A stretch of DNA of 64,000 nt. It comes from Symbiodinium sp. CCMP2592. Lineage: Eukaryota; Sar; Dinophyceae; Suessiales; Symbiodiniaceae. The DNA lies in assembly GCA_905221615.1 (NCBI GenBank), contig CAJNDT010005870.1:369501-433500 (forward strand). The letters are read 5' to 3'. The position numbers were made by a program, and so were the translations under genes. This document shows positions 6,101 to 64,000 of the stretch, piece by piece (position 1 is the first letter of the stretch; every line of letters starts with the position of its first letter). Below the pieces are notes generated by a model. It searched no databases. It saw nothing but the letters and a program-made list of their open reading frames with translations, and had not been told where the DNA came from.

Positions 6101-8323
6101 GCCAATTTCTTGCAGTTTGAGAGCCCAGGCGTGTGATTACATGGGGCCACCCTGAGCATGGTGGTGACAGCATGGCAAGACAGAGCGAGCTGGAGCTCTT
6201 TTGCTGCATGGTGCAGTCAACTTCTCGGGGGAAATTTCTACCGAGAAGCCAGATAAAGCCTGACAAAGTTGACTCTTTCTGTACTTGCACCCCGCAAGAA
6301 TTGCGAAAGAATGAGACTATGAGGATGATCGACAGCGAGGGGGTAGGACGGGCAGCATCACCAAGTAGCCAAAGTGGCCTTTGAACATCGAATCCCGTCA
6401 TCAATCGCAGGCTTAGTTCATGCGGGTCGACGGTGGACTTGCAGTGCTCATTGGGACCTAATCGGTATTTTCAGTATTCTGCCCGGTTCGCAAGTTTGAT
6501 GTAAGAGATGGAAGCATCCACGAGAACCGTTATAAGGCGCAATGTGGTGACGCGTTTGCACGCCAACCAGTTTGCCTTTGCAGCGGAGACGGTGGAGGGG
6601 CATCTCCTCGCTTGGGGCTGCCCAGATCGAGGCGGCGACGTAAGCTCCGTTGCAGCTTCTATGGAAGGGCTGCTTCCGGCTCAGGCCGGGCCATGCACCT
6701 TGCTTTAGATGCTCTGTACTTGTAGGATCATGGGACTTAGTAAGTATGGTTATTACAAGTTATAAGTACCTTAATTGGGGTTATCAGTTACCCGAAAAAA
6801 AGCCGTAGTTAGTCAGTCCCATGATCCTTCAAGCAGCCCACGGCGCATCCTCTGTTTGGAGGATGTCTCCTCCAATGCAAGCGCCTTTGCAGCACGGCTC
6901 CGCGATGGCAGCGTCGTGACCTGGGGAGATCCGGCCTTTGGAGGCTCAGTGCTTTATGCTCCCGTCCGAGGGGGCCGAGCGAGTAGAGCAGAGTCGTGCT
7001 GGAAGTTGAGAGGGGGATGCCGGAGGCGACAGCTCCTCAGTTCGGAAATCTCTGTCTTCTGCAGCTCAGCTTTGCATTATGCTCCCCCTCACATGGCTCA
7101 AGAGCGCCATGTCCATGAGCTCATTTTCAGCGGCATGCTCCTTTTGGCGCCAGTGAGGTCAAGAAAGTGTACAGTTCGCGCCGCGCCCTTGCATTCGCAG
7201 CGATCACAGATGACGGATCCGTGGCTTTGCAGGCATTACTGTGGTTTACATTGTTGAGTATCTCGGACAATCTCGGACAGGAGTGTTCATGTGTCCGTGC
7301 TTCGTTCACCACGTGCTAGTCTTTCACAGTAGGAAAGTTCATGCATGCTTCTGCTGCATGTCACCCTGCTGCTGTTTCCAAGAAGGTTGTCACCTGGGGC
7401 CACCCAGACATGGGTGGCAACAGTGCGGATGTACAGCACCAGCTGATCGATGTGGTGACCATCGAAGTGTACTCCTTTGCATGGGCAGCTCTCCGCACCT
7501 GCGCCCGCACGGAGCTCCAGCATGCGAAGCCTGCCACAAAGTTTGAGCATCTTGTCAGCTGAGGCAGGGATGGCCGGGTGGTGACGTGGGGAGAGTCGCA
7601 AAAAGGTGGAGACAGCAGCATGGTGCAAGAACAGCTGAGAGATGTCGAGCAGGCCCGTGTCTGGAAAGCTTGGCGAACGTGTTCAAATATGGAAGGATTA
7701 CAAACGTTTGGATGTGGCAGGATTTAGAAATGGGCCTGGGAGGGGAGTTTTGCGGACATGTCAGAAGGCCATTGTCGGGGACAAGCTTTTGCAGAAGCAG
7801 GCAGCTGTGTCCCCACAAGCAGGTGTGTGCCAATGCCTACGCATTCGCAGCAGTTCGAACCTGGGCCAAAGCAGACGGCTGATTGCTTTGAATTGAAGCA
7901 GAAGAGCGATATCCGCCGTAGGATCACAGAAACTAATGCGACCGACTGACCGACTTAGGACGGGATGGTACCGTGGTAACGTGGGGCCAAGCTTTGCGTG
8001 GCGGTGGCTTGACTTGGGATGCGAAAGGTGGATGCCACAACTGTCGGTTACCAGCCGGCAGCCCGCCCGCAGCCCGAGGTGACAGCAGCTACGTGCAGCA
8101 TCAGCTCATCAACGTGGAGCCCGGGGCGTGATAGCGCGTACACTTCGTCAGACGAGCTGTCTTGTCAGGGGCTTCGAAGTGCTTGGCAGGAGTTTATCTA
8201 TGCTACCGCTGCAGCTTTCGCGGCAGCGAGAACGGATGGCACAGTTGTGACTTGGGGCGACCCTTCGCGTGGTGGGGATGGCTGCCCTGTCCAACTTAGA
8301 GCGGGGCCAAGCAGCCAAATGTG
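3168..8323 (+). CDS. Ubiquitin-like plus WG-repeat (RCC1/HERC2-like) protein, many exons
   Basis: Span of a split gene, not one ORF. The first exon starts at the ATG at 3168 (MTIRVSVGLLSGEQRDVEV, ubiquitin-like). WG-type RCC1-like repeats follow: AAFAVVSEHGEALAWGHPQ (3738-3850), DGSVVTWGNAGRGGEEVQ (4100-4155), HAFAAVRNDGTVITWGHPQM (5758-5865), a repeat split over 5958-6007 and 6129-6200 whose halves join in phase as NDGRVITWGHPEHGGDS, then further ones at 6560-6650, 6870-6960, 7175-7230 plus 7382-7460, 7470-7500 plus 7565-7655, 7830-7875 plus 7957-8110, and 8205-8290 (TDGTVVTWGDPSRGGD). Each repeat is an AFAA(L/V)R strand followed by DGxVVTWGxPxxGGDSSxVQ, as in RCC1-like propellers used as protein-binding scaffolds. 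Exon edges are approximate and intactness is unproven. Another gene lies between two of the exons. Confidence 0.65.
4346..5269 (+). CDS. Cysteine-rich protein of unknown function, 307 residues (intact copy B)
   Basis: Single open frame. I chose the ATG at 4346 because the peptide MHVARLAGYTIFVFGVPVAG starts at the same place in decayed copy A (MHFARLA) and upstream in-frame codons are not conserved. Visible features: ten cysteines, including CCC at 40-42, C63, CCW at 82-84, C90 and C113; a block FKQIRPDRPFWFHEG (66-80); a Gly/Ala/Ser-rich segment at 149-171 that could form a membrane or glycine-zipper helix; and a C-terminal block with YNNGKISSDWMHVEYDETG (234-252) and IQDPETYQP (258-266). 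No signal peptide is obvious. I do not recognise the family. Three damaged relatives lie in this window (497, 32225, 42480). It sits between exons of the Ubl/WG gene on the same strand. The long open frame with conserved blocks supports a real gene; its function is unknown. Confidence 0.7.
   Translation: MHVARLAGYTIFVFGVPVAGVRPALDSAVADEEALGDPVCCCKSQVEKGSIDTTLIPIEWHHCDAFKQIRPDRPFWFHEGMCCWTSKYFCTGTIGELLVGHDNSGDRASADKCPASSPDGTVRPPDPTMAYNRNVEYLETKIATMLVSNVVGFASGSAGSAHSSAKGSAGAIVVKTAKDISSGHKSGEAALGGLFEDLRGDLAVGQSSRITGVTGTDVHFGGTGLERAATVWKYNNGKISSDWMHVEYDETGNSFYVIQDPETYQPKQENGCHRLKQGLGHVCIVPDSDRRGFHMKAEVDLTKEVPS
6719..6833. mobile_element. MITE-like inverted-repeat element, about 115 bp
   Basis: The left end CTTGTAGGATCATGGGACT is repeated inverted at the right end as AGTCCCATGATCCTTCAAG with one mismatch in 19. 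The interior is short and AT-rich with no coding capacity. It lies between two WG exons. The same right-end sequence closes a related element near 25540. Target-site duplication is not clear. Confidence 0.7.
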
Positions 8324-9256: not shown

Positions 9257-9317
9257 GGCCGTCCCCCCCTGGTGCGACGCCGGTCGCTGAGTTCGTGGAT
9301 GTACAACATGTTCATGG

Positions 9318-9780
9318 ATGCTCTCCAAACCCAAATGCGCTAGACCATGGACGTCGTTAGGTTTTGGACATGGATGCTTTCCAAACCAAAATGCGCTAGA
9401 CCATGGACTTAGGTTTTGGACATGGATGCTCTCCAAACCCAAATGCGCTAGACCATGGACGTCATTAGGTTTTGGACATGGATGCTCTCCAAACCCAAAT
9501 GCGCTAGACCATGGACGTCATTAGGTTTTGGACATGGATGCTCTCCAAACCCAAATGCGCTAGACCATGGACGTCAATAGGTTTTGGACATGGATTCTCT
9601 CCAAACCAAAATGCGCTAGCCATGGACGTCATTAGGTTTTGGACATGGATGCTCTCCAAACCCAAGTGCGCTAGACCATGGACGTCATTAGGTTTTGGAC
9701 ATGGATGCTCTCCAAACCAAAATGCGCTAGACCATGGACGTCATTAGGTTTTGGACATGGATGCTCTCCAAACCAACGAT
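9318..9780. repeat. 56-bp tandem repeat, about eight to nine units
   Basis: Units start at 9318, 9374, 9426, 9482, 9538, 9594, 9649, 9705 and 9761 with the word ATGCTCTCCAAAC (ATGCTTTCC and ATTCTCTCC in two units). Spacing is 56 bases except for one 52-base and one 55-base unit. Each unit contains CGCTAGACCATGGACGTC. As 56 is not a multiple of three, the translated repeats rotate through frames, which argues against coding. It is bracketed by CTA tracts. Confidence 0.95.
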
Positions 9781-47205: not shown

Positions 47206-47291
47206 ATCGAAAGTAACACACTCCAAGCGATTTGGGCTGAAGCTTGTCCGTGAAACGCCGCGCCGTCAGACGCTCTCGAGAGACCGACATC

Positions 47292-49789
47292 ATGGCGGGC
47301 AAGGGCCTTCTTTCGAACATTGGCATCTGGGCCTCGCGGCCCAATTCTGGAGCCAGCATGTGATAGCACAGGGGTCATTTGACTAGATTCTAGGCTAACA
47401 GCTTGCAGATTTTTTTAAGCTCAACAGAAGTTGCTGCACTGAGGTGGCCGTCACTCTGGCGACATGGGCGATCTCCTGGCTGGTGGCTGCACCCGTAAGC
47501 TGCCACGAAGTGCCTGCATGCGCTAAGCACTTGCAGAGTTACCCCGGGTACTACCACGTCATCTCTGCGGCAGCATTGGTGGCCATGCTGGGCCACGAGG
47601 TATTGAGCCTCATTGCGACGTATATGGGAGCCCAGGAGACACAAGCCTTGGTGCCCCACCTCCAGAGCCGCTTTTTGCCCACCCTGCTGCTGGCTGTGAT
47701 GTTTGGCGTGCTTGCGACGGCCGAGCGCCTCTTCTCACGTGCTGAGTGGACCATTGCGCATGTCATGCCGAGTGCGGACGGCCTCACCGCACCCGGTCGC
47801 CCGGTGTATACGATGCAGTACATGGAGTGGGGCATCAATGTTCCGATCATGCTGATCCTGTCCGGCTACTGCACGCTCGGGCGTCCCTTGCGCGAGGTGT
47901 CGAGGCCACTGATCGTCACCAACGTGTATGTGATCTTGTGCTGGGTGGCCACCGCAACTGAGAGCGCCTTCCTGAAGTGGTTTCTGATCGGGGTTTCTTT
48001 TGCCATGTATGCCTGGGCCTCTTATGACATGCTGAACTGGTGCTCTGCCTATGAGCGCACAGCTCCGGCAGATTTGCCAAGCCGCGGCCTACGACCCTTC
48101 CTGTCTTCTGGCCTCGTTGCGCACCTTCTGTTGTATGGCGTGGTCTACATGGCATCAGTGATGGGTGTCATGGACGCACACACGGAGCGCAAGTCCTTCT
48201 TTGCTTTGACCTTCGGAGCCAAGCTCGCCTACAGCGCGGCTTTCGTCTTCATCCGAGCGGATGAATACCACAAGACCCTGACCGACGTGCTGCGAAAGGT
48301 AAGTGTGAGCAACGTCGGTATGATCAGCATTCTCAGAGGAAGTTTTGACATCATTCTTCCTTGCGTGCTGGATGCAGCTGGCCGTTGCAAGCTGCCGGAT
48401 AAATATTCCGGCGACATGACGAAGCTGGAGAAGATCCTGGGATACGGCGTCTCTGGTGCAAATCTCAAGGACCTCTTGGCAGGAGAAGATCAGAAGAGTG
48501 ACTTCTCAGCTTATGTCCGGAATGTGGTGCGCCAGGCTGATTGCCCACAGGCCTTCAATGCAGCAACCCTCTCGACACAGGGAGTGTGGAGCTGTGACTC
48601 TGGAGCCATGCCTCCTATCGCTCAGGTGCTGCACAGCAAAATCCAGCAGAAGTCCAGTCAAAAGCTCAACACCACGCTCCACCTCTCCGTGGTGCCGCGC
48701 TCTGCGCTGAGTTTGGGCAAGGAGAGGCAGCTGGTGGCCGCCTTCCAGATCTCCAGTCCCGAGAGCTTGAACGAGGAGGAGCCTGCAGCCGCAACGAACT
48801 TCGCAACGTTCAAAGCAGGCCAAAGCTCTGTGGGATCCACTACCAATCCCAGCAGTAATGAGGGCTCATCCCATGGCATTGTCGCTAACCTCGCAGATCT
48901 CACGAAGCTTGGTGCATCGGCGATGCTTGGAAACACCCCGGAGGTCACCGACGAGGCCAGCAACTACTTCGGCCACACTCTCACTTCTGCGGAGACTCGC
49001 CTGAATCTGCAAGGGCGTTTCAAGCATACTTGCCATGTCCAAAGAGTTGCAGGCCTGCCCTATCTAGAATGCCACCCACTCTCTCCCAGTGATTCCCAGT
49101 CCCTCCCAACACCTAAGGAGACCATGTCGCATTTGGGCGCCTTTGCACAGCAACAGGTGGCCGTGGGTGCCGTGGCTTTCGACGCTCGCATCGTGGGTGT
49201 TTGGGAAGGCAACGTGGCTAAGGCCCTGGGTGGCTATCGCCAGCGTATCGAGTTCCTCAACGATTGCTTGCATGCGAACGTCACCGTCATGGGGCAGACT
49301 CTCTCAGCTGTCTTCCGCATGGATGCGTCCAAGGGCCATCTGGACATTGAAGTGCTCCCAAGCGGAAGCAGCTGCCCGCCACCGGCCATCCCCTACATCT
49401 TCAAGTTCCAGGACGGCTGCTTGCACCTCTGCGGGCCGGGGACCTCCAGCCTGAAGCGACCACAAAGCTTCGATGGCCCCGGGCTCTGCATCATGGAGCG
49501 CGTGCAGAAGTTTGTGGAGCCTGCGGCGCCGCGCTCGCAGCGTTCCTTGGCGCCCGAGCTTGAGCCTGACCCAGAGTTCTTCAGCCGCCACACCACCGAA
49601 GAGACGAAATCTCAGGCCTCGATGCACTCCACACGCCTCAAGGAGGAGCTGAACCAATTGGGACAGGGCCAGGTTCCGAAGGCCTACAGTCCGAAGCTCT
49701 TCAGCTGGATTGAAGAACAGCCCGCAGTGGCCGCTTCTGCTTTGGTCGCCATGACTAGTGCTGTCATCGCGCTGCGCAAGTCGCTCTGA
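47292..49789 (+). CDS. Rhodopsin-PAS-lipocalin-like chimeric membrane protein, copy 1
   Basis: Proposed first exon from ATG 47292 (MAGKGLLSNIGIW), a short intron, then a 781-codon open frame from 47444, numbered here from 1. Residues 2-18 form an extra N-terminal helix. Seven more helices follow at about 36-62, 77-97, 122-141, 154-171, 176-199, 217-240 and 250-271. Helix C has QYMEWGINVP (125-134), like RYxDWxxxxP of type 1 rhodopsins. Helix G has FGAKLAYS with K260 as retinal-binding lysine. Residues 295-440 resemble a PAS domain (SFDIILPCVLDAAGR, then KILGY and DLLAGEDQ). Residues 583-687 (GVWEGN to HLCGPGTSSLKRPQSFDGPG) resemble the lipocalin-like TIGR03067 barrel. Residues 760-776 are a hydrophobic tail before RK. 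Likely a retinal photosensor; output unknown. This edge copy differs most: its exon 1 and intron are diverged, and the possible donor GGTAGC is GATAGC. Confidence 0.82.
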
Positions 49790-50036
49790 GCGTGCGTGGT
49801 GCCGTGAGGGCAACGCCCAAGTTCCAGTTCCAGAGGTTGAGCATGGTTGAGCCCAGCTCAATTTCTCTTGCCACAGAGCTTGCTCGAGATCCGATAAAGC
49901 GACTGACATTTTGGAGTTGAGAAGGTCCAGGTCTCTGAATGCAGTGGCTCTTGTTTTGGGCTCTGTGCTGTTCTCATGCTAAGGGCCGGTCGAGCTTCGG
50001 CATTGGCCTTTCACCCAATTTAGGAGTAGTGCATGC

Positions 50037-50040
50037 GCGC

Positions 50041-50104
<64 letters not shown>

Positions 50105-50110
50105 CTATCT
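50037..50110. repeat. (TA)n microsatellite in array spacer 1
   Basis: Follows GCATGCGCGC. TA runs broken by CACACATA and CTAT words. Counterparts of other lengths lie at 53537-53560, 56967-56990 and 60422-60440. Confidence 0.95.
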
Positions 50111-50766
50111 ATCATGTGCTCTCTGCTGCTTTGTCCGAAGGTGCGGCTGGCCAATAGTACCCACGAGAGTGTTTCCATGCGACAATCTGCGCGCAGCGCG
50201 CCTGTGCCGCAAATGCATGTTCTGCGACGATGCCTCTAGCGGTGTGGTCTGTTGTAGATGATCTACAGTAGATGCAGAGGGCTGCAGAACAGTGGAACGG
50301 TGGGAAGTTGGTCACATCACAGAGAAGGATATTGCACCGCTGTTCCATGCCGAGTTCCTGGGCACACAGAGAGTGCGACACAATGCGCACCAGCCCTAGC
50401 GGACTCATGTTTCAAGTTTTATAAGGATAGCGCTTGCGAGCGCAATCGCGAGGCTTTGGGCACGTCTGGCTGGTCTTCCCATGCGCAAATCTGTTTGGAC
50501 GAAGATAGTTTGCTTGACTCAGACATGCCTGCAAATTGATGTTGCGCTGCGCAACCTGTCAGCCGCCGGATTTTCCTACCCGTGCGGCACTGTCGACCCG
50601 TTTCAAGACTTCCTTCCGGCAGTGTGGCTAAGTGTTCTGCATGTCGTCATGGTCGCGAAGTGCTCCGAGAACGATTGCTTCGTGACACATGTGTGACATC
50701 ACTTCACCGCATGGCCAGAAGCTATTTGGGCTTAAGCTGCCGCACCCCACTCTCCAGAGCGACGTC

Positions 50767-53285
50767 ATGGCGGGCAAGGGCCTTCTTTCGAACATTGGCA
50801 TCTGGGCCCCGCGGCCCAATTCTGGAGCCAACATGTGGTAGCACAACTTTCATTTAGCTCCATTTTTTGCTGGTGGAAGGAGGGTTTCAGTTAAACAGAA
50901 GTTGCTGCATTCAGGTGGCCGTCACTCTGGCGACATGGGCGATCTCCTGGCTGGTGGCTGCACCCGTAAGCTGCCACGAAGTGCCTGCATGCGCTAAGCA
51001 CTTGCAGAGTTACCCCGGGTACTACCACGTCATCTCTGCGGCAGCATTGGTGGCCATGCTGGGACACGAGGTATTGAGCCTCATTGCGACGTATATGGGA
51101 GCCCAGGAGACACAAGCCTTGGTGCCCCACCTCCAGAGCCGCTTTTTGCCCACCCTGCTGCTGGCTGTGATGTTTGGCGTGCTTGCGACGGCCGAGCGCC
51201 TCTTCTCACGTGCTGAGTGGACCATTGCGCATGTCATGCCGAGTGCGGACGGCCTCACCGCACCCGGTCGCCCGGTGTATACGATGCAGTACATGGAGTG
51301 GGGCATCAATGTTCCGATCATGCTGATCCTGTCCGGCTACTGCACGCTCGGGCGTCCCTTGCGCGAGGTGTCGAGGCCACTGATCGTCACCAACGTGTAT
51401 GTGATCTTGTGCTGGGTGGCCACCGCAACTGAGAGCGCCTTCCTGAAGTGGTTTCTGATCGGGGTTTCTTTTGCCATGTATGCCTGGGCCTCTTATGACA
51501 TGCTGAACTGGTGCTCTGCCTATGAGCGCACAGCTCCGGCAGATTTGCCAAGCCGCGGCCTACGACCCTTCCTGTCTTCTGGCCTCGTTGCGCACCTTCT
51601 GTTGTATGGCGTGGTCTACATGGCATCAGTGATGGGTGTCATGGACGCACACACGGAGCGCAAGTCCTTCTTTGCTTTGACCTTCGGAGCCAAGCTCGCC
51701 TACAGCGCGGCTTTCGTCTTCATCCGAGCGGATGAATACCACAAGACCCTGACCGACGTGCTGCGAAAGGTAAGTGTGAGCAACGTCGGTATGATCAGCA
51801 TTCTCAGAGGAAGTTTTGACATCATTCTTCCTTGCGTGCTGGATGCAGCTGGCCGTTGCAAGCTGCCGGATAAATATTCCGGCGACATGACGAAGCTGGA
51901 GAAGATCCTGGGATACGGCGTCTCTGGTGCAAATCTCAAGGACCTCTTGGCAGGAGAAGATCAGAAGAGTGACTTCTCAGCTTATGTCCGGAATGTGGTG
52001 CGCCAGGCTGATTGCCCACAGGCCTTCAATGCAGCAACCCTCTCGACACAGGGAGTGTGGAGCTGTGACTCTGGAGCCATGCCTCCTATCGCTCAGGTGC
52101 TGCACAGCAAAATCCAGCAGAAGTCCAGTCAAAAGCTCAACACCACGCTCCACCTCTCCGTAGTGCCGCGCTCTGCGCTGAGTTTGGGCAAGGAGAGGCA
52201 GCTGGTGGCCGCCTTCCAGATCTCCAGTCCCGAGAGCTTGAACGAGGAGGAGCCTGCAGCCGCAACGAACTTCGCAACGTTCAAAGCAGGCCAAAGCTCT
52301 GTGGGATCCACTACCAATCCCAGCAGTGATGAGGGCTCATCCCATGGCATTGTCGCTAACCTCGCAGATCTCACGAAGCTTGGTGCATCGGCGATGCTTG
52401 GAAACACCCCGGAGGTCACCGACGAGGCCAGCAACTACTTCGGCCACACTCTCACTTCTGCGGAGACTCGCCTGAATCTGCAAGAGCGTTTTGCGGAGAT
52501 GAGTCAAGCATACTTGCCATGTCCAAAGAGTTGCAGGCCTGCCCTATCTAGAATGCCACCCACTCTCTCCCAGTGATTCCCAGTCTGATTCCCAGTCCCT
52601 CCCAACACCTAAGGAGACCATGTCGCATTTGGGCGCCTTTGCACAGCAACAGGTGGCCGTGGGTGCCGTGGCTTTCGACGCTCGCATCGTGGGTGTTTGG
52701 GAAGGCAACGTGGCTAAGGCCCTGGGTGGCTATCGCCAGCGTATCGAGTTCCTCAACGATTGCTTGCATGCGAACGTCACCGTCATGGGGCAGACTCTCT
52801 CAGCTGTCTTCCGCATGGATGCGTCCAAGGGCCATCTGGACATTGAAGTGCTCCCAAGCGGAAGCAGCTGCCCGCCACCGGCCATCCCCTACATCTTCAA
52901 GTTCCAGGACGGCTGCTTGCACCTCTGCGGGCCGGGGACCTCCAGCCTGAAGCGACCACAAAGCTTCGATGGCCCCGGGCTCTGCATCATGGAGCGCGTG
53001 CAGAAGTTTGTGGAGCCTGCGGCGCCGCGCTCGCAGCGTTCCTTGGCGCCCGAGCTTGAGCCTGACCCAGAGTTCTTCAGCCGCCACACCACCGAAGAGA
53101 CGAAATCTCAGGCCTCGATGCACTCCACACGCCTCAAGGAGGAGCTGAACCAATTGGGACAGGGCCAGGTTCCGAAGGCCTACAGTCCGAAGCTCTTCAG
53201 CTGGATTGAAGAACAGCCCGCAGTGGCCGCTTCTGCTTTGGTCGCCATGACTAGTGCTGTCATCGCGCTGCGCAAGTCGCTCTGA
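50767..53285 (+). CDS. Rhodopsin-PAS-lipocalin-like protein, copy 2 (frame-split, B variant)
   Basis: Exon 1 from ATG 50767, main frame from 50915. The rhodopsin and PAS-like parts are intact, but the frame stops at 52576 and the barrel continues in another frame (open from 52620, MSHLGAFAQQQ). The cause is a central block in which CTGCAAGAGCG is followed by TTTTGCGGAGATGA, 13 bases longer than copies 1 and 3. Removing 52503-52536 as a GT-AG intron gives LQERFAEMSLPYLECHP and restores the downstream frame exactly. A tandem 12-base insertion adds SDSQ. So this is either a spliced functional gene, a gene with two products, or a frameshifted pseudogene. The rest is as conserved as in the open copies, which favours function. 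Confidence 0.7.
52503..52536 (+). other. Candidate 34-nt GT-AG mini-intron in copy 2
   Basis: Begins GTCAAG and ends TTGCAG before GCC, so the acceptor fits the AG-G pattern of this genome. Length 34 is one more than a multiple of three, so retention truncates the protein and removal restores the barrel frame. Confidence 0.5.
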
Positions 53286-53531
53286 GCGTGCGTGGTGCCG
53301 TGAGGGCAACGCCCAAGTTCCAGTTCCAGAGGTTGAGCATGGTTGAGCCCAGCTCAATTTCTCTTGCCACAGAGCTTGCTCGAGATCCGATAAAGCGACT
53401 GACATTTTGGAGTTGAGAAGGTCCAGGTCTCTGAATGCAGTGGCTCTTGTTGCGGGCTCTGTGCTGTTCTCATGCTAAGGGCCGGTCGAGCTTCGGCATT
53501 GGCCCTTCACCCAATTTAGGAGTAGTGCATG

Positions 53532-53536
<5 letters not shown>

Positions 53537-53560
<24 letters not shown>
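53537..53560. repeat. (TA)n microsatellite in array spacer 2
   Basis: Pure TA run, shorter than in spacer 1, in the same relative position after GCATGCGCGC. Confidence 0.95.
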
Positions 53561-53562
<2 letters not shown>

Positions 53563-54217
53563 CATATGCTCTCTGCTGCTTTGTCCGAAGGTGCGGCTGG
53601 CCAATAGTACCCACGAGAGTGTTTCCATGCGACAATCTGCGCGCAGCGCGCCTGTGCCGCAAATGCATGTTCTGCGACGATGCCTCTAGCGGTGTGGCCT
53701 GTTGTAGATGATCTACAGTAGATGCAGAGGGCTGCAGAACAGTGGAATAGGTGGGAAGTTGGTCACATCACAGAGAAGGATATTGCACCGCTGTTCCATG
53801 CCGAGTTCCTGGGCACACAGAGAGTGCGACACAATGCGCACCAGCCCTAGCGGACTCATGTTTCAAGTTTTATAAGGATAGCGCTTGCGAGCGCAATCGC
53901 GAGGCTTTGGGCACGTCTGGCTGGTCTTCCCATCTGCAAATCTGTTTGGACGAAGATAGTTTGCTTGACTCAGACATGCCTGCAAATTGATGTTGCGCTG
54001 CGCAGCCCGTCAGCCGCTGGATTTTCCTACCCGTGCGGCACTGTCGACCCGTTTCAAGACTTCCTTCCGGCAGTGTGGCTAAGTGTTCTGCATGTCGCCA
54101 TGGTCGCGAAGTGCTCCGAGAACGATTGCTTCGTGACACATGTGTGACATCACTTCACCGCATGACCAGAAGCTATTTGGGCTTAAGCTGCCGCACCCCA
54201 CTCTCCAGAGCGACGTC

Positions 54218-56711
54218 ATGGCGGGCAAGGGCCTTCTTTCGAACATTGGCATCTGGGCCCCGCGGCCCAATTCTGGAGCCAACATGTGGTAGCACAACTT
54301 TCATTTAGCTCCATTTTTTGCTGGTGGAAGGAGGGTTTCAGTTAAACAGAAGTTGCTGCATTCAGGTGGCCGTCACTCTGGCGACATGGGCGATCTCCTG
54401 GCTGGTGGCTGCACCCGTAAGCTGCCACGAAGTGCCTGCATGCGCTAAGCACTTGCAGAGTTACCCCGGGTACTACCACGTCATCTCTGCGGCAGCATTG
54501 GTGGCCATGCTGGGACACGAGGTATTGAGCCTCATTGCGACGTATATGGGAGCCCAGGAGACACAAGCCTTGGTGCCCCACCTCCAGAGCCGCTTTTTGC
54601 CCACCCTGCTGCTGGCTGTGATGTTTGGCGTGCTTGCGACGGCCGAGCGCCTCTTCTCACGTGCTGAGTGGACCATTGCGCATGTCATGCCGAGTGCGGA
54701 CGGCCTCACCGCACCCGGTCGCCCGGTGTATACGATGCAGTACATGGAGTGGGGCATCAATGTTCCGATCATGCTGATCCTGTCCGGCTACTGCACGCTC
54801 GGGCGTCCCTTGCGCGAGGTGTCGAGGCCACTGATCGTCACCAACGTGTATGTGATCTTGTGCTGGGTGGCCACCGCAACTGAGAGCGCCTTCCTGAAGT
54901 GGTTTCTGATCGGGGTTTCTTTTGCCATGTATGCCTGGGCCTCTTATGACATGCTGAACTGGTGCTCTGCCTATGAGCGCACAGCTCCGGCAGATCTGCC
55001 AAGCCGCGGCCTACGACCCTTCCTGTCTTCTGGCCTCGTTGCGCACCTTCTGTTGTATGGCGTGGTCTACATGGCATCAGTGATGGGTGTCATGGACGCA
55101 CACACGGAGCGCAAGTCCTTCTTTGCTTTGACCTTCGGAGCCAAGCTCGCCTACAGCGCGGCTTTCGTCTTCATCCGAGCGGATGAATACCACAAGACCC
55201 TGACCGACGTGCTGCGAAAGGTAAGTGTGAGCAACGTCGGTATGATCAGCATTCTCAGAGGAAGTTTTGACATCATTCTTCCTTGCGTGCTGGATGCAGC
55301 CGGCCGGTGCAAGCTGCCGGATAAATATTCCGGCGACATGACGAAGCTGGAGAAGATCCTGGGATATGGCGTCTCTGGTGCAAATCTCAAGGACCTCTTG
55401 GCAGGAGAAGATCAGAAGAGTGACTTCTCAGCTTATGTCCGGAATGTGGTGCGCCAGGCTGATTGCCCACAGGCCTTCAATGCAGCAACCCTCTCGACAC
55501 AGGGAGTGTGGAGCTGTGACTCTGGAGCCATGCCTCCTATCGCTCAGGTGCTGCACAGCAAAATCCAGCAGAAGTCCAGTCAAAAGCTCAACACCACGCT
55601 CCACCTCTCCGTGGTGCCGCGCTCTGCGCTGAGTTTGGGCAAGGAGAGGCAGCTGGTGGCCGCCTTCCAGATCTCCAGTCCCGAGAGCTTGAACGAGGAG
55701 GAGCCTGCAGCCGCAACGAACTTCGCAACGTTCAAAGCAGGCCAAAGCTCTGTGGGATCCACTACCAATCCCAGCAGTGATGAGGGCTCATCCCATGGCA
55801 TTGTCGCTAACCTCGCAGATCTCACGAAGCTTGGTGCATCGGCGATGCTTGGAAACACCCCGGAGGTCACCGACGAGGCCAGCAACTACTTCGGCCACAC
55901 TCTCACTTCTGCGGAGACTCGCCTGAATCTGCAAGGGCGTTTCAAGCATACTTGCCATGTCCAAAGAGTTGCAGGCCTGCCCTATCTAGAATGCCACCCA
56001 CTCTCTCCCAGTGATTCCCAGTCCCTCCCAACACCTAAGGAGACCATGTCGCATTTGGGCGCCTTTGCACAGCAACAGGTGGCCGTGGGTGCCGTGGCTT
56101 TCGACGCTCGCATCGTGGGTGTTTGGGAAGGCAACGTGGCTAAGGCCTTGGGTGGCTATCGCCAGCGTATCGAGTTCCTCAACGATTGCTTGCATGCGAA
56201 CGTCACCGTCATGGGGCAGACTCTCTCAGCTGTCTTCCGCATGGATGCGTCCAAGGGCCATCTGGACATTGAAGTGCTCCCAAGCGGAAGCAGCTGCCCG
56301 CCACCGGCCATCCCCTACATCTTCAAGTTCCAGGACGGCTGCTTGCACCTCTGCGGGCCGGGGACCTCCAGCCTGAAGCGACCACAAAGCTTCGATGGCC
56401 CCGGGCTCTGCATCATGGAGCGCGTGCAGAAGTTTGTGGAGCCTGCGGCGCCGCGCTCGCAGCGTTCCTTCGCGCCCGAGCTTGAGCCTGACCCAGAGTT
56501 CTTCAGCCGCCACACCACCGAAGAGACGAAATCTCAGGCCTCGATGCACTCCACACGCCTCAAGGAGGAGCTGAACCAATTGGGACAGGGCCAGGTTCCG
56601 AAGGCCTACAGTCCGAAGCTCTTCAGCTGGATTGAAGAACAGCCCGCAGTGGCCGCTTCTGCTTTGGTCGCCATGACTAGTGCTGTCATCGCGCTGCGCA
56701 AGTCGCTCTGA
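54218..56711 (+). CDS. Rhodopsin-PAS-lipocalin-like protein, copy 3 (open frame)
   Basis: The cleanest copy. Main exon 54366-56711 is open throughout, with the A-type centre (LQGRFKHTCHVQRVAGLPY), so no mini-intron is needed. Exon 1 at 54218 reads MAGKGLLSNIGIWAPRPNSG and is conserved in all four units. The intron between has the acceptor ATTCAG before GTGGCC. The alternative upstream ATG at 54318 would extend the frame through what I read as intron sequence. Copy 3 shares Phe in RSFAPELEP and several silent sites with copy 4, yet shares the centre with copy 1. With exon 1 the product is about 803 residues. Confidence 0.85.
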
Positions 56712-56966
56712 GCGTGCGTGGTGCCGTGAGGGCAACGCCCAAGTTCCAGTTCCAGAGGTTGAGCATGGTTGAGCCCAGCTCAATTTCTCTTGCCACAGAG
56801 CTTGCTCGAGATCCGATAAAGCGACTGACATTTTGGAGTTGAGAAGGTCCAGGTCTCTGAATGCAGTGGCTCTTGTTGCGGGCTCTGTGCTGTTCTCATG
56901 CTAAGGGCCGGTCGAGCTTCGGCATTGGCCCTTCACCCAATGTAGGAGTAGTGCATGCATGCATGT

Positions 56967-56990
56967 GTATATATATATATATACATATAT
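56967..56990. repeat. (TA)n microsatellite in array spacer 3
   Basis: Short TA run after GCATGCATGCATGTG. This leading word differs from spacers 1 and 2 (GCATGCGCGC) and is shared with the array end at 60410. Confidence 0.95.
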
Positions 56991-57647
56991 ATCATGTGCT
57001 CTCTGCTGCTTTGTCCGAAGGTGCGGCTGGCCAATAGTACCCACGAGAGTGTTTCCATGCGACAATCTGCGCGCAGCGCGCCTGTACCGCAAATGCATGT
57101 TCTGCGACGATGCCTTTAGCGGTGTGGCTTGTTGTAGATGATCTACAGTAGATGCAGAGGGCTGCAGAACAGTGGAATAGGTGGGAAGTTGGTCACATCA
57201 CAGAGAAGGATATTGCACCGCTGTTCCATGCCGAGTTCCTGGGCACACAGAGAGTGCGACACAATGCGCACCAGCCCTAGAGGACTCATGTTTCAAGTTT
57301 TATAAGGATAGCGCTTGCGAGCGCAATCGCGAGGCTTTGGGCACGTCTGGCTGGTCTTCCCATCCGCAAATCTGTTTGGACGAAGATAGTTTGCTTGACT
57401 CAGACATGCCTGCAAATTGATGTTGCGCTGCACAACCCGTCAGCCGCTGGATTTTCCTACCCGTGCGGCACTGTCGACCCGTTTCAAGACTTCCTTCCGG
57501 CAGTGCGGCTAAGTGTTCTGCATGTCGTCATGGTCGCGACGTGCTCCGAGAACGATTGCTTCGTGACACATGTGTGACATCACTTCACCGCATGACCAGA
57601 AGCTATTTGGGCTTAAGCTGCCGCACCCCACTCTCCAGAGCGACATC

Positions 57648-60166
57648 ATGGCGGGCAAAGGCCTTCTTTCGAACATTGGCATCTGGGCCCCGCGGCCCAA
57701 TTCTGGAGCCAACATGTGGTAGCACAACTTTCATTTAGCTCCATTTTTTGCTGGTGGAAGGAGGGTTTCAGCTAAACAGAAGTTGCTGCATTCAGGTGGC
57801 CGTCACCCTGGCGACATGGGCGATCTCCTGGCTGGTGGCTGCACCCGTAAGCTGCCACGAAGTGCCTGCATGCACTAAGCACTTGCAGAGTTACCCCGGG
57901 TACTACCACGTCATCTCTGCGGCAGCATTGGTAGCCATGCTGGGCCACGAGGTATTGAGCCTCATTGCGACGTATATGGGAGCCCAGGAGACACAAGCCT
58001 TGGTGCCCCACCTCCAGAGCCGCTTTTTGCCCACCCTGCTGCTGGCTGTGATGTTTGGCGTGCTTGCGACGGCCGAGCGCCTCTTCTCACGTGCTGAGTG
58101 GACCATTGCGCATGTCATGCCGAGTGCGGACGGCCTCACCGCACCCGGTCGCCCGGTGTATACGATGCAGTACATGGAGTGGGGCATCAATGTTCCGATC
58201 ATGCTGATCCTGTCCGGCTACTGCACGCTCGGGCGTCCCTTGCGCGAGGTGTCGAGGCCACTGATCGTCACCAACGTGTATGTGATCTTGTGCTGGGTGG
58301 CCACGGCAACTGAGAGCGCCTTCCTGAAGTGGTTTCTGATCGGGGTTTCTTTTGCCATGTATGCCTGGGCCTCTTATGACATGCTGAACTGGTGCTCTGC
58401 CTATGAGCGCACAGCTCCGGCAGATCTGCCAAGCCGCGGCCTACGACCCTTCCTGTCTTCTGGCCTCGTTGCGCACCTTCTGTTGTATGGCGTGGTCTAC
58501 ATGGCATCAGTGATGGGTGTCATGGACGCACACACGGAGCGCAAGTCCTTCTTTGCTTTGACCTTCGGAGCCAAGCTCGCTTACAGCGCGGCTTTCGTCT
58601 TCATCCGAGCGGATGAATACCACAAGACCCTGACCGACGTGCTGCGAAAGGTAAGTGTGAGCAACGTCGGTATGATCAGCATTCTCAGAGGAAGTTTTGA
58701 CATCATTCTTCCTTGCGTGCTGGATGCAGCTGGCCGTTGCAAGCTGCCGGATAAATATTCCGGCGACATGACGAAGCTGGAGAAGATCCTGGGATACGGC
58801 GTCTCTGGTGCAAATCTCAAGGACCTCTTGGCAGGAGAAGATCAGAAGAGTGACTTCTCAGCTTATGTCCGGAATGTGGTGCGCCAGGCTGATTGCCCAC
58901 AGGCCTTCAATGCAGCAACCCTCTCGACACAGGGAGTGTGGAGCTGTGACTCTGGAGCCATGCCTCCTATCGCTCAGGTGCTGCACAGCAAAATCCAGCA
59001 GAAGTCCAGTCAAAAGCTCAACACCACGCTCCACCTCTCCGTGGTGCCGCGCTCTGCGCTGAGTTTGGGCAAGGAGAGGCAGCTGGTGGCCGCCTTCCAG
59101 ATCTCCAGTCCCGAGAGCTTGAACGAGGAGGAGCCTGCAGCCGCAACGAACTTCGCAACGTTCAAAGCAGGCCAAAGCTCTGTGGGATCCACTACCAATC
59201 CCAGCAGTGATGAGGGCTCATCCCATGGCATTGTCGCTAACCTCGCAGATCTCACGAAGCTTGGTGCATCGGCGATGCTTGGAAACACCCCGGAGGTCAC
59301 CGACGAGGCCAGCAACTACTTCGGCCACACTCTCACTTCTGCGGAGACTCGCCTGAATCTGCAAGAGCGTTTTGCGGAGATGAGTCAAGCATACTTGCCA
59401 TGTCCAAAGAGTTGCAGGCCTGCCCTATCTAGAATGCCACCCACTCTCTCCCAGTGATTCCCAGTCTGATTCCCAGTCCCTCTCAACACCTAAGGAGACC
59501 ATGTCGCATTTGGGCGCCTTTGCACAGCAACAGGTGGCCGTGGGTGCCGTGGCTTTCGACGCTCGCATCGTGGGTGTTTGGGAAGGCAACGTGGCTAAGG
59601 CCCTGGGTGGCTATCGCCAGCGTATCGAGTTCCTCAACGATTGCTTGCATGCGAACGTCACCGTCATGGGGCAGACTCTCTCAGCTGTCTTCCGCATGGA
59701 TGCGTCCAAGGGCCATCTGGACATTGAAGTGCTCCCAAGCGGAAGCAGCTGCCCGCCACCGGCCATCCCCTACATCTTCAAGTTCCAGGACGGCTGCTTG
59801 CACCTCTGCGGGCCGGGGACCTCCAGCCTGAAGCGACCACAAAGCTTCGATGGCCCCGGGCTCTGCATCATGGAGCGCGTGCAGAAGTTTGTGGAGCCTG
59901 CGGCGCCGCGCTCGCAGCGTTCCTTCGCGCCCGAGCTTGAGCCTGACCCAGAGTTCTTCAGCCGCCACACCACCGAAGAGACGAAATCTCAGGCCTCGAT
60001 GCACTCCACACGCCTCAAGGAGGAGCTGAACCAATTGGGACAGGGCCAGGTTCCGAAGGCCTACAGTCCGAAGCTCTTCAGCTGGATTGAAGAACAGCCC
60101 GCAGTGGCCGCTTCTGCTTTGGTCGCCATGACTAGTGCTGTCATCGCGCTGCGCAAGTCGCTCTGA
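57648..60166 (+). CDS. Rhodopsin-PAS-lipocalin-like protein, copy 4 (frame-split, B variant)
   Basis: Exon 1 from ATG 57648, main frame from 57796, apparent stop at 59457, barrel frame open from 59501 to 60166. It carries the same B-type block and the same 12-base insertion as copy 2. The frame is restored by removing 59384-59417. One unique replacement changes ACAKH to ACTKH in the loop after the first helix. Sharing of two linked indels with copy 2, but of the RSFAPELEP site and spacer type with copy 3, points to exchange between copies. It is the last unit; the array breaks off 0.27 kb after its stop. Confidence 0.7.
59384..59417 (+). other. Candidate 34-nt GT-AG mini-intron in copy 4
   Basis: Identical in sequence and position to 52503-52536. 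Its retention in two array members without further decay argues against a simple dead frameshift. Confidence 0.5.
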
Positions 60167-60421
60167 GCGTGCGTGGTGCCGTGAGGGCAACGCCCAAGTT
60201 CCAGTTCCAGAGGTTGAGCATGGTTGAGCCCAGCTCAATTTCTCTTGCCACAGAGCTTGCTCGAGATCCGATAAAGCGACTGACATTTTGGAGTTGAGAA
60301 GGTCCAGGTCTCTGAATGCAGTGGCTCTTGTTGCGGGCTCTGTGCTGTTCTCATGCTAAGGGCCGGTCGAGCTTCGGCATTGGCCCTTCACCCAATGTAG
60401 GAGTAGTGCATGCATGCATGT

Positions 60422-60440
60422 GTATATATATATATATATG
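60422..60440. repeat. (TA)n run at the array end and composition boundary
   Basis: Homology to the array stops in this run. The next base on starts AT-rich sequence unrelated to the rest of the array. Confidence 0.9.
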
Positions 60441-61190
60441 AGCCCGATACCTTTAGGGTCTATTTAACTAGTCTGCCATATATACAATATAAGATCCCTA
60501 TCTAAATCATATGTTCCTACATATTATATTACAAGACTTACGCTCTGAAAAGTTTAGCATTACTTAGGTCTATAATATTTTTATCATTATTGCTGACACC
60601 ATTGCCACGTTGATACCTGATTAATATACAGTGTCACCTATACAGACAACTGAATTTTAATAATTAATACCTATAACAATATCATTACGAATCCAATGGA
60701 ACACAAAGCAATAACACTCAAACCAAAATAATTATAGTAAGTATTGCTTACATCCCTGTCGCTGCGAATCCTACCTAGTGCAAGTTAGCATCACTACAAT
60801 CATATATTAGGCATTGCATATATAGTGTCAGTACTAATGCAGTCGAATAGAAATTACAAACAGTGTAACCAAAATCTTTCTTTTTAGTATTGTCTACGCC
60901 ACTGCGACTATGAATCCTATTCAGCGTAAGTTACCTCCTCTACGTGCAAACTACTTATAATACTTCTTATCTAGGTCCGTGTCATTAGGATGCATATCAA
61001 ACAGAAAGCAACACCAATACAACCAAAATAATTATAGTAAGTATTGCTTACATCTCTGTCCCTGCGAATCCTACCTAGTGTAAGTTAGCATCACTATAAT
61101 TATCTATTGGGTATTGCATATACTGTGTCAGTATTAGTGTAGCCGAACAGAAATTACAAACACTGGAACCAAAAATAATTCTACTAAGTA
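60441..61190. other. AT-rich region with diverged repeats; no gene
   Basis: A block starting ATTATAGTAAGTATTGCTTA and continuing through CGAATCCTACCTAGTG and GCATATATAGTGTCAGTA occurs near 60730, 61030 and 61584, with a damaged copy near 60890. It flanks the duplicated ATPase exons and behaves like a repeated intron segment. Confidence 0.7.
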
Positions 61191-61194
61191 TTGT

Positions 61195-61420
61195 CGACGC
61201 CCCTGCAACTAGGAATCCTACATCTCGAGGGAGAGAACTGTGAACTGCCACTAACCATCCAGGCTCCACAAAAAGACAGACACCAACTCGAACAAAAGAT
61301 TGGCCTAAGCAATCGTGACATTACTAATTGTCGTACCTGCGGTACATCAATCCTGTAATCATTGCTGCCATATTGCAGTTGTCTTTCCTTTGCCTCAGCC
61401 TCTGTAAGGCCCCTCGCGTC
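61195..61420 (-). pseudogene. P5-type ATPase exon, damaged duplicate
   Basis: On the minus strand it reads GLTEAEAKERQLQYGSNDYR, then IDVPQVRQLVMSRLLRPIF. A one-base loss shifts the frame before what would be LFELVSVFLWSLDG, followed by a stop. The intact twin lies 0.56 kb away. The pattern (LTExEAxxRxxxYGxN, then a hydrophobic FxFxxxxVxLW helix) is the cytoplasmic N-terminal and first paired membrane helix of P5 (ATP13A-like) P-type ATPases. I judge this exon non-functional. Confidence 0.6.
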
Positions 61421-61779
61421 TGCGCTGGCACAGGATACGCAGCGTCTCACTCTTATGCGGGACAGCAGCCGCAAGCAAATTTGCGCCTCCTGTGCCCGTT
61501 TCGAGCAGCTTGTAATGCTGCCCGTGCTATCCGAATCGCAGTTGATAACTCATGGCAGCCGAATAACACCAATACAACCAAATTAATTATAGTAAGTATT
61601 GCTTACATCTCTGTCCCTGCGAATCCTACCTAGTGTAAGTTAGCATCACTACAATCATAGATTAGGTATTGCATATATAGTGTCAGTACTAATGCAGTCG
61701 AACAGAACAGAAATTGCAAACGATTTAATCAAAAATAGTTATAGTAAGTATTGTCTACGCCCCTGCAACTAGGAATCCT

Positions 61780-61985
61780 ACGTCCCGAGGGAGAGTACTG
61801 TGAACTGCCTATAACCATTCAGGCCCCACAAAAAGACATACGCCAACTCAAACAGAAAGATTAGCCGAAGCAATCGTGACAGTACCAATTGTTCTACCTG
61901 CGGTACAGCAATCCTGTAATCCTTGCTGCCATATTGCCGTCGTATTTCCGTTGCCTCAGCCTCTGTAAGGCTCTCGTGTATGCGG
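61780..61985 (-). CDS. P5-type (ATP13A-like) cation-transporting ATPase, single exon
   Basis: About 66 codons open on the minus strand: SLTEAEATEIRRQYGSKDYR, IAVPQVEQLVLSRLLRLIFL and FELAYVFLWGLNGYRQFTVL. It matches the region of P5 ATPases just before and in the early membrane helices, where family members carry YGxNxIxVPxxxxxxLLxxEVLxPFYxFQxFSVxLW. The catalytic DKTGT loop is not in the window; it would lie on later exons at lower coordinates, which are not seen, so the gene is a fragment or has long introns. P5 ATPases sit in endomembranes and move polyamines or extract membrane helices. A possible donor GTAGGA follows the exon. Confidence 0.6.
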
Positions 61986-62099
61986 GTTACATATGCTACA
62001 TATATCTACTGAGGCAAGCCAGGTCTGAACAAACTAGTTCCTTGTCAATAGGGTTTCAATATGAGGAGTGCATGTAATGTATTGGTTCGCCCTGTCCAG

Positions 62100-63240
62100 A
62101 AGTGAAGAGAAACATTATAGCCCCTGCAATGTGCCAGTTTCTTCTGTCCGTAAGAAGGGCTTTCCGATGTATCAGCTTCATATCAAGAGGGCTTCAGTAG
62201 GATGAGTGGGCGTGACAGGTCAAAGGCTTGTAATGTGTTCGTTTGTTCTGTCTGGGGGCTTTCGAATGTATAAGTTCCTCGCCAAAAGAGTTTTGATAGG
62301 CGGGAGTGGAGTGACACATTAGAGAGTCTATATTGTGTCAGTTTGTTCTGCCCAGGGGCCTTCCAATATACAGGGTCGCTTCAGTGGATAAGTTCCTTGT
62401 CAATAGGTTTCCATGGGGAATGGAGTAACACATTAGAGGGTCTGTAATGTGTCAGGTCGCTGTGTCCAGGAGCCTTCCAAAGTAGGATTTTACTTGTCAA
62501 TATACTTTCAATAGAAGGGATGAAGTGACACATTAGAGGGCTTGTAATGTGTTAATTCGTTATGCCCAAGTCAATAGAGTTTGAAAAGGGGAAGTGGAGT
62601 AACACTTTACAGGGCATGTAATGTGCCAATCTGTTATGTCCTGGACTTTCCAGTGTATAAGTTCCCTGTCAGTAGAGGATCAATCGGAGTGGGTGGAGTG
62701 ACACATTAGGGTGCCTGTAATATGTCAATTTGATATGCCCAGGTACAGGGGCCTGACAGTGTCTAAGTTCCTTGTTAGTAGGGTTTCAGTAGGAGAAATG
62801 AAGTGACACATTAGAGGGCATGTAATATGTCAATTTGCCCAGTCCAGGACCCAGGAAGTGAAGATACACATTATAGTGGGTTTAATGTGCCAGATTGTTA
62901 TGTCCATAAAAAGTGCTTTCCGATGTATCAATTTCTTATCAGTAGGGTTTCAATAGCATAGGTGGAGCGACACATTATACGGCCTGCAGTGTGTCAGTTT
63001 ATTATGTCCAGGGGTTTTCTAGTGGAAAAGTTCCATTGCAATAGAGGTTCCATAGGAAGGAGTGGAGTGACACATTAGAGGGCCTGTAATGCGTCAGTTT
63101 ATACTACCCAGAGACCTTCCAATATACAGATGCCCTACAGTGTATAAGTTCCTTGCCTTTAGGGTTTCAATAGGAATATTGACACATGAGAAGGCCTGTA
63201 ATGTGTCAGTTTGTTTTCCCATGTGCCTTCCAATGTATCT
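62100..63240. repeat. Diverged tandem repeat of about 100 bp, some 12 units
   Basis: Units carry GTGACACATTAGAGGGC, TGTAATGTGTCAGTTTGTT, a CCAGGGGCCTTCCAATGTAT-like word, AAGTTCCTTGTCAATAGGGT and TTCAATAGGA. Core words occur near 62112, 62211, 62311, 62427, 62527, 62600, 62697, 62803, 62863, 62967, 63068 and 63180. Spacing varies from about 60 to 116, so units have gained and lost pieces. Non-coding. Confidence 0.9.
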
Positions 63241-63339
63241 TTATACATATCAGATCTGATGTGATCACAGCATTAGCCAAGAAGGATATCACGTAGTTAA
63301 TAGTCTTCACGATCTTAACAAAGGCGCAATTATCCGTAT

Positions 63340-63770
63340 CGAAGGTATACATTCCCATGAAAAAATCCCTATAGATCCCTTCACAGATCCCTTGTATGGA
63401 GCCCTCATAGACAGCCTCTATAGATTCGTATAGAAACTTTATAGATCCCCTATATAGAGAACTTATAGAAACCCCGTATAGATCAACAAATGGAGTTCTT
63501 TGTAGAAAACTTTACAAGACCCCTTACATGGAGCTTTCATAGACAACTGCTATATATTCCTTACCCTTTGTAGAAACCACATGGAAGCCCTGTATAGATC
63601 CCTCGTATGGAGCCCTTCTGGAAAACCCTTGCAGATTGCTTATAGAAATCTTATAGATCCTCTATGTAGAGACCTTATAGAAACCCATTAAAGAAAAAAC
63701 TATAGATCCCTTACAGAGAGACTTTCTAGAAACTCATTATGGATCCCTCATATGGGGCTTTTATAGTAAG
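63340..63770. repeat. Short diverged tandem repeat (TATAGATCCC/TATAGAAACC)
   Basis: Roughly 35-45 base units combining TATAGATCCCT, TATGGAGCCCT and CATAGAAAACC-like words. Strongly diverged; non-coding. Confidence 0.85.
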
Positions 63771-63904
63771 CCCGGTTACAAAGTATGTAGATGCGATGTG
63801 GTAAGCTATTCTTGATATAGTAGTTAAGATAAATCGATTGTATTATGGTTCGTACAATACCTATGAAATTACCTTTAAGAATAGAGGGAGCGGTATTAAA
63901 ACCA

Positions 63905-64000
63905 ATGAAACCGGCAACGAAGATGATGACGATGAAGAAGATGATGAAGATGATGGAGATGATGAAGATGATGGAGATGATGAAGATGATGAGATGATGA
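63905..64000 (+). repeat. GAT/GAA-rich repeat at the window edge
   Basis: Imperfect 15-18 base units of GATGATGAAGATGATGGA. In one frame it reads as Asp/Glu-rich acidic repeat, which could be part of a protein continuing beyond the window, but a microsatellite explains it equally well. Confidence 0.8.

Follow-up and report, generated by a model that had tools for sequence, protein, structure and literature searches.

A tandem array of rhodopsin genes with a PAS-like region and a TIGR03067-like barrel in Symbiodinium sp. CCMP2592, a candidate retinal photosensor

What kind of protein is encoded by a gene that lies four times in a row in the genome of the dinoflagellate Symbiodinium sp. CCMP2592, and has its like been described? 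The stretch considered here, the window, is 64,000 nucleotides (nt) long (GenBank assembly GCA_905221615.1, contig CAJNDT010005870.1, positions 369,501 to 433,500); it is C5008:369501-433500 in our scan of the genome, which covered 1.098 Gb in 5,383 contigs. An earlier interpretation of its letters, the sequence-only reading, had claimed four head-to-tail genes for an apparently new fusion of a type 1 rhodopsin with a PAS-like domain, a linker, a lipocalin-like barrel and a hydrophobic tail. Four direct copies are indeed present at 47.2-60.4 kb, with a step of 3,426-3,496 nt and identities of 97-99%, and a fifth lies ~41 kb downstream of copy 4, beyond the window (C5008:470.3-472.8k). The answer that we favour, with moderate confidence and on the strength of sequence comparison, is that these genes encode a dinoflagellate-type 8-helix type 1 rhodopsin which senses light through retinal and does not pump, and that the array arose by amplification of a retrogene.

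Gene model and introns

Without splicing, copies 1 and 3 have open frames of 796 and 800 codons from stop to stop, and copies 2 and 4 run into a stop after 572 codons. What breaks the frame are differences of 13 nt and 12 nt, confined to a single short stretch that separates the PAS-like part from the barrel, and in two relatives elsewhere in the genome, designated C3469 and C1646, both sides of this stretch join in one open frame (SMTDETMSHLAAF in C3469, QSCNFSHFGAF in C1646). Because the flanks are contiguous there, the stretch is read as an intron of the array lineage, intron 2, of 126 or 151 nt, with a GA donor and an AG acceptor; GA donors are used in dinoflagellate gene-prediction pipelines, according to the accessible part of PMC7245778. 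The apparent breaks of copies 2, 4 and 5 are insertions inside this intron, and the idea that copies 2 and 4 are broken genes was rejected, both being intact once it is removed. Intron 1 is small (85 or 89 nt, GC-AG) and follows an exon 1 of 13 codons. The model that we infer from these comparisons has three exons and 760 residues, with a single terminal stop in all five copies. By contrast, the 781-residue frame (47444-49789) previously taken as the gene product had to be given up: exon 1 (47292-47330) is missing from it, as are 8 codons of exon 2, and 42 intron codons (48992-49117) are included, which settles the bookkeeping (760-13-8+42=781). Reading in a single frame hides GA-AG introns in genes of this sort.

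A further relative, C2524, was aligned with the spliced copy-3 protein as query, no boundaries being supplied, and three exons came out at the same places. Exons 1, 2 and 3 are 92.3, 91.4 and 94.9% identical to those of copy 3; introns 1 and 2 are 60.0 and 51.6% identical, and the upstream and downstream flanks 61.3 and 47.3%. Among the array copies, pairwise dS (synonymous divergence) is 0.006-0.026, and comparison of copy 1 with copy 3 gives 70.6% identity in intron 1 and 65.1% in the upstream flank, with intron 2 identical.

The rhodopsin part and its possible functions

The type 1 rhodopsin domain is recovered by PF01036 in copy 3 (E=4.9e-6, 26.6 bits for a cut-off of 24.6), and up to E=1 no other Pfam family was found in the window protein, P0002. 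By hydropathy, the seven helices of the rhodopsin are preceded in copy 3 by one N-terminal segment, which agrees with the extra helix proposed there, and the C-terminus has a segment of its own at 738-756. One more peak, at 312-330, falls where the PAS-like region begins. The lysine numbered K260 in the 781-residue frame does occupy the retinal-lysine position, becoming K281 in the corrected protein, and QYMEWGINVP falls in helix C, where it had been placed. The residues of the chromophore site are K281, E149, N153, Q146 and T277 (the last from TFGAK), which we take to correspond to K216, D85, T89, R82 and D212 of bacteriorhodopsin, with L at position 96. At the three positions where a proton pump is tested for carboxylates (85, 96 and 212), E149 is present, and L and T277 stand at the other two. 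A light-driven proton pump is rejected by this motif, a pump being unlikely because neither the donor nor the second counterion position bears a carboxylate.

Conservation was followed in an alignment of six rhodopsins: copy 3, C3469, C1646, C5122, C4934 and C4790. All six share the lysine, the E and N of helix C and, at the donor position, L. The residue at the R82 position is Q in copy 3 and C5122, R in C1646 and F in C4934 and C4790; in C3469 an intron splits the codon, which reads Q as spliced and R unspliced. The best-conserved 20-residue window of the whole protein is the helix leaving helix G, where 17 of the 20 residues are invariant with respect to three paralogs. Beyond the rhodopsin, the order rhodopsin, PAS-like region, linker, barrel is kept in the models of C2524 (three exons), C3469, C1646 and C5122; in C2046 the match takes in the rhodopsin and the PAS-like part, and in C4934 and C4790, which both have NxxxK, it is limited to the rhodopsin (34 and 37% identity). 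The models of C3469, C1646 and C5122 were spliced by a script guided by the array protein, so that their small exons are uncertain, and that of C5122 has one stop within a poorly aligned linker exon; in C2046, C4934 and C4790, what lies outside the rhodopsin and PAS-like matches is mostly spurious and was excluded from all counts.

Judged from substitution ratios, purifying selection is acting on the domains of the array protein. Between copy 3 and C2524, the nearest of the four loci with this domain order (the sole comparison used, dS being saturated against C3469, C1646 and C5122) the ratio of nonsynonymous to synonymous divergence, dN/dS, is 0.091 overall and, within approximate domain borders, 0.06 in the rhodopsin, 0.025 in the PAS-like region, 0.095 in the linker, 0.134 in the barrel and 0.141 in the tail. 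The reading as a photosensor and not a pump is drawn from these features together: K281 with E149, no carboxylate at the donor or second counterion position, a conserved coupling helix after helix G, and purifying selection. The PF01036 match, bestrhodopsin as best PDB match (below), the domain order kept at four other loci, the five intact copies and the possibly sensory role that the authors of PMC9601134 give to their protein also speak for it.

When a profile of six rhodopsin domains was run against the PDB, 24 distinct sequences matched up to E=1, with bestrhodopsin 7pl9 on top (E=2.2e-14), followed by halorhodopsin 7zou (2e-9) and rhodopsin phosphodiesterase 7d7q (1e-7); 7cj3 (1.6e-6) and Chrimson (3e-5) are also among them. 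The presence of Chrimson invites the thought of a light-gated ion channel of the channelrhodopsin kind, with a regulatory C-terminal part, and dinoflagellate rhodopsins with channel activity do exist (PMC8406140). However, bestrhodopsin and a halorhodopsin outscore Chrimson, four residues before the lysine the array protein has T and not the N of the dinoflagellate channels, and the TCP motif reported for their third transmembrane helix (TM3) in the accessible part of that paper is replaced by NVP or NMP in all six aligned rhodopsins. A channel of the TCP type is rejected by this motif, and a channel of any description appears unlikely.

A protein related to heliorhodopsins is likewise a doubtful proposition. 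It derives from a relative in Symbiodinium natans, discussed below, which its authors' tree placed closest to heliorhodopsins and whose TxxxK was compared with the heliorhodopsin SxxxK (PMC9601134, accessible part). Yet no heliorhodopsin family accompanied PF01036 in the Pfam scan up to E=1, and none of the 24 PDB matches is named heliorhodopsin, several being named merely Rhodopsin. That the protein is a retinal-free scaffold retaining the rhodopsin fold is very improbable, in the face of a lysine invariant in six of six rhodopsins and of the low dN/dS of that part. Finally, an assembly or pseudogene artefact made of collapsed or broken copies, suggested by the broken frames of unspliced copies 2 and 4, hardly deserves consideration, as a single splice model opens five of five copies, C2524 yields its three exons with no boundaries supplied and dN/dS is 0.09 against it.

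The genome holds rhodopsins of other kinds. Frames at C4947:36308-36847 and C3624:57160-57955 have VEWxLTCPI in helix C and NxxxK in helix G and fit the dinoflagellate channelrhodopsin motif as given in the accessible part of PMC8406140. The two best PF01036 matches of the genome are single long open frames, C713:644009-644644 and C28:224769-225320, with IRYIDWITTTPLML and IRYIDWIATTPLML; both look proteorhodopsin-like. In the viral contigs scanned with the window protein P0002, no relative was found.

The soluble part and a possible mechanism

Several results weigh against the photosensor that we favour, most of them in the soluble part. The PAS-like domain of the sequence-only reading is not borne out by sequence: with its four members, this part matched no PAS family in Pfam, the only match being unrelated (E 0.15), a PDB profile search with it found nothing PAS-like, and comparison with 76 bacterial LOV sequences (from 80 loci) scored 14.4, where shuffling the columns gave 15 or higher in at least 8 of 60 trials, with 17.8 as the best. 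As the profile consists of four similar sequences only, a small base for such searches, the PAS assignment is best called unproven. These negative results agree with the accessible part of PMC9601134, where the second half of the S. natans protein is without recognisable domain and was identified through its predicted structure. Furthermore, nothing in the protein was recognised as an enzyme, a channel or a known output domain, and the first 40 residues are weakly constrained (dN/dS 0.459 against C2524).

The barrel stands in part. TIGR03067, presumably a lipocalin-like family, is the only NCBIfam model matched by all four barrel members, three of which cover just the second half of the profile, and the paralogs sustain the match (C3469, 1.3e-6; C5122, 0.00079; C1646, 0.0023). 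What does not stand is a match of the window copies by themselves, which is not significant (E 0.023 for copy 3, 0.037 for copy 2), and every member remains under the curated cut-off (14.3-28.6 bits for 40.15). With the barrel part, the PDB profile search gave a best E of 0.11 and the Pfam scan no family; a whole-genome TIGR03067 search did not recover the array itself and gave one weak other locus. A 521-codon open frame at C1324:778818-779060 matches TIGR03067 weakly around LQGVWELKD (E 0.04), and no rhodopsin was seen in it. The hydrophobic tail, for its part, is found as predicted in the C-terminal hydropathy segment, and a similar C-terminus exists in C2524, C1646 and C5122; it was not found in the C3469 model.

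If the array protein is a photosensor, the chain of events that we infer would be as follows. Light would isomerise retinal, helix G would then move, and the coupling helix would relay this movement to the PAS-like region and, next, to the barrel, supposing that both adopt the folds after which they are named. The barrel might bind a ligand or a partner, and membrane anchors at both ends, provided that the C-terminal segment does enter the membrane, would keep the soluble part at its surface. One may go a step further and imagine a doubly membrane-anchored photoreceptor whose barrel binds a lipophilic ligand (retinal, an apocarotenoid), light controlling the handling of that ligand or contact with the membrane with no enzyme or channel as output; this is a long shot. 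Were the photosensor reading true, we would face a conserved modular family with a bestrhodopsin-like light domain, with at least five loci in a single genome and so far glimpsed in print as one shorter model. Its gene model of three exons, the five copies that are intact and a coupling helix of known position make it directly testable.

Origin of the array and its place among known systems

How did such genes come to be repeated? Dinoflagellates are known for tandem arrays and for retrogenes that carry leader relics (PMC7245778, PMC12014239), and relics of the dinoflagellate leader sequence serve as retrogene tags, as the accessible part of PMC12014239 has it. In the whole window, both strands included, matches to at least 15 of the 21 letters of this leader are found at four places only, beginning 51-70 nt before the four ATGs; among 3,000 forward pieces of 150 nt drawn at random from bases 1-47000, none reaches 15 and 48 reach 14. 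The four relics are not four independent events, because the sites are related copies (three of them identical). In C2524 a match of 14/21 lies at a like place, which alone is within chance. The array genes have 3 exons, against 17, 29 and 31 modelled in C1646, C5122 and C3469, and on account of this difference and of the leader-like relics the simplest account of the array seems to be a retroposed copy, amplified afterwards. Intron 2 would have been gained after retroposition, because it is absent from C3469 and C1646, so that an intron gain in a retrogene is possible. GAGAC stands at the start of intron 2 and again just past its end in all four window copies (48992-49117, 52463-52613, 55914-56039, 59344-59494).

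Table 1. Features of the array in window coordinates (residue numbers refer to the 760-residue model; the leader sequence is from the accessible part of PMC12014239)
Feature	Position	Strand	Basis
Spliced-leader-like relic upstream of copy 1	47222..47242	+	15/21 letters
Copy 1 exon 1 (MAGKGLLSNIGIW)	47292..47330	+	39/39 identical to copy 3 despite diverged flank and intron 1
Copy 1 intron 1, GC-AG, 89 nt	47331..47419	+	70.6% identity to copy 3
Copy 1 exon 2: extra N-terminal helix, 7-helix rhodopsin, coupling helix, PAS-like region, linker	47420..48991	+	Splice model, hydropathy; PF01036 on copy 3
Copy 1 rhodopsin part with extra N-terminal helix, residues 20-291	47438..48253	+	Copy 3 hydropathy and PF01036
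Copy 1 putative retinal-lysine codon, K281 (formerly K260)	48221..48223	+	Position from copy 3; lysine in 6/6 aligned rhodopsins
Copy 1 candidate coupling helix after helix G, residues 289-311	48245..48313	+	Best 20-residue windows begin at residues 291 and 292
Copy 1 PAS-like region (PAS assignment unproven), residues 312-458	48314..48754	+	Analogy to PMC9601134 (accessible part)
Copy 1 intron 2, GA-AG, 126 nt, open in frame	48992..49117	+	Splice model
Copy 1 exon 3: TIGR03067-like region and hydrophobic tail	49118..49789	+	Splice model, profile match, hydropathy
Copy 1 TIGR03067-like region, residues 558-675	49178..49531	+	Matches of copies 3 and 2 and of paralogs
Copy 1 C-terminal hydrophobic segment, residues 738-756	49718..49774	+	Hydropathy
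Spliced-leader-like relic upstream of copy 2	50716..50736	+	16/21
Copy 2 exon 1	50767..50805	+	Splice model
Copy 2 intron 1, GC-AG, 85 nt	50806..50890	+	Splice model
Copy 2 exon 2	50891..52462	+	Splice model
Copy 2 intron 2, GA-AG, 151 nt, 13+12 nt insertions	52463..52613	+	Splice model, copy comparison
Copy 2 exon 3	52614..53285	+	Splice model, TIGR03067 scan
Spliced-leader-like relic upstream of copy 3	54167..54187	+	16/21
Copy 3 exon 1	54218..54256	+	Splice model
Copy 3 intron 1, GC-AG, 85 nt	54257..54341	+	Splice model
Copy 3 exon 2	54342..55913	+	Splice model
Copy 3 intron 2, GA-AG, 126 nt	55914..56039	+	Splice model
Copy 3 exon 3	56040..56711	+	Splice model
Spliced-leader-like relic upstream of copy 4	57597..57617	+	16/21
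Copy 4 exon 1	57648..57686	+	Splice model
Copy 4 intron 1, GC-AG, 85 nt	57687..57771	+	Splice model
Copy 4 exon 2	57772..59343	+	Splice model
Copy 4 intron 2, GA-AG, 151 nt, with insertions	59344..59494	+	Splice model
Copy 4 exon 3	59495..60166	+	Splice model

Each array copy also holds an antisense open reading frame of 201 residues (49304-49909 on the minus strand, and three equivalents). These were rejected as genes, the one of the four that was scanned matching no NCBIfam or Pfam family, and they are probably a by-product of coding bias. Elsewhere in the window, the GC content falls to 0.41-0.43 past the array (60440-64000), with internal repeats around 60578-61984; a tandem repeat with a step of ~56 nt lies at 9313-9776, and a 160-residue open reading frame at 6775-7257 has a weak RCC1 repeat match (E 0.009, under cut-off).

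Among known systems, the dinoflagellate tandem genes and retrogenes of PMC7245778 and PMC12014239 share with the array, as far as their accessible parts describe them, head-to-tail copies, an upstream leader relic, few introns and the GA donor. The Polarella rhodopsins of PMC7245778, in the accessible part, have proton-pump types as top hits, whereas the array rhodopsin is without the pump residues. The closest published case by layout is the S. natans protein CAE7343182.1, of 532 residues, in which a PAS fold, identified with AlphaFold2, VAST and TM-align, comes after the rhodopsin domain; it is of the Q-type, has the motifs QNL in TM3 and TxxxK in TM7, and was read by its authors as possibly sensory (PMC9601134, accessible part). 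This protein, S. natans AltR, has in common with the window protein (ENL, TxxxK) the Q-type, N and L at the second and third positions of the TM3 motif and TxxxK in TM7; it differs in the first residue of that motif, Q for E, and its description, in the accessible part, is without barrel or tail. It could be a relative of lesser length, or its gene model may be truncated; the kinship would rest on motifs and layout and not on sequence. The array family is thus not wholly new, since a rhodopsin-PAS protein with similar motifs is in print; what survives of the claim of novelty is the barrel and the hydrophobic tail, undescribed in the literature searched (mostly without subscription journals and without bioRxiv preprints), where the rhodopsin-PAS order plus a barrel was not found. 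The array gene would seem to belong to a rare type of photoreceptor, as a larger version of it not studied before.

As to the barrel, what sets the array apart from TIGR03067 proteins is that the TIGR03067-like region is here fused to a rhodopsin. Enzymerhodopsins (7d7q, 7cj3) resemble the array protein in having a rhodopsin followed by a soluble part, which in them is a catalytic module, whereas no cyclase, phosphodiesterase or kinase family was found in the scans of the array protein. Rh-PDE also has an extra N-terminal helix. Fusion to bestrophin is named as the example of dinoflagellate rhodopsin variants in the accessible part of PMC11453091, and bestrhodopsin is bistable (PMC12291454, accessible part). 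Bestrhodopsin 7pl9 has VYxxxYMEW in helix C and LYG in helix F in common with the array rhodopsin; it matches with two rhodopsin stretches, whereas the array protein has one, and no bestrophin family was found in the window protein P0002. Four residues before the lysine, 7pl9 has D and the array protein T, and this change at the second counterion position may alter bistability.

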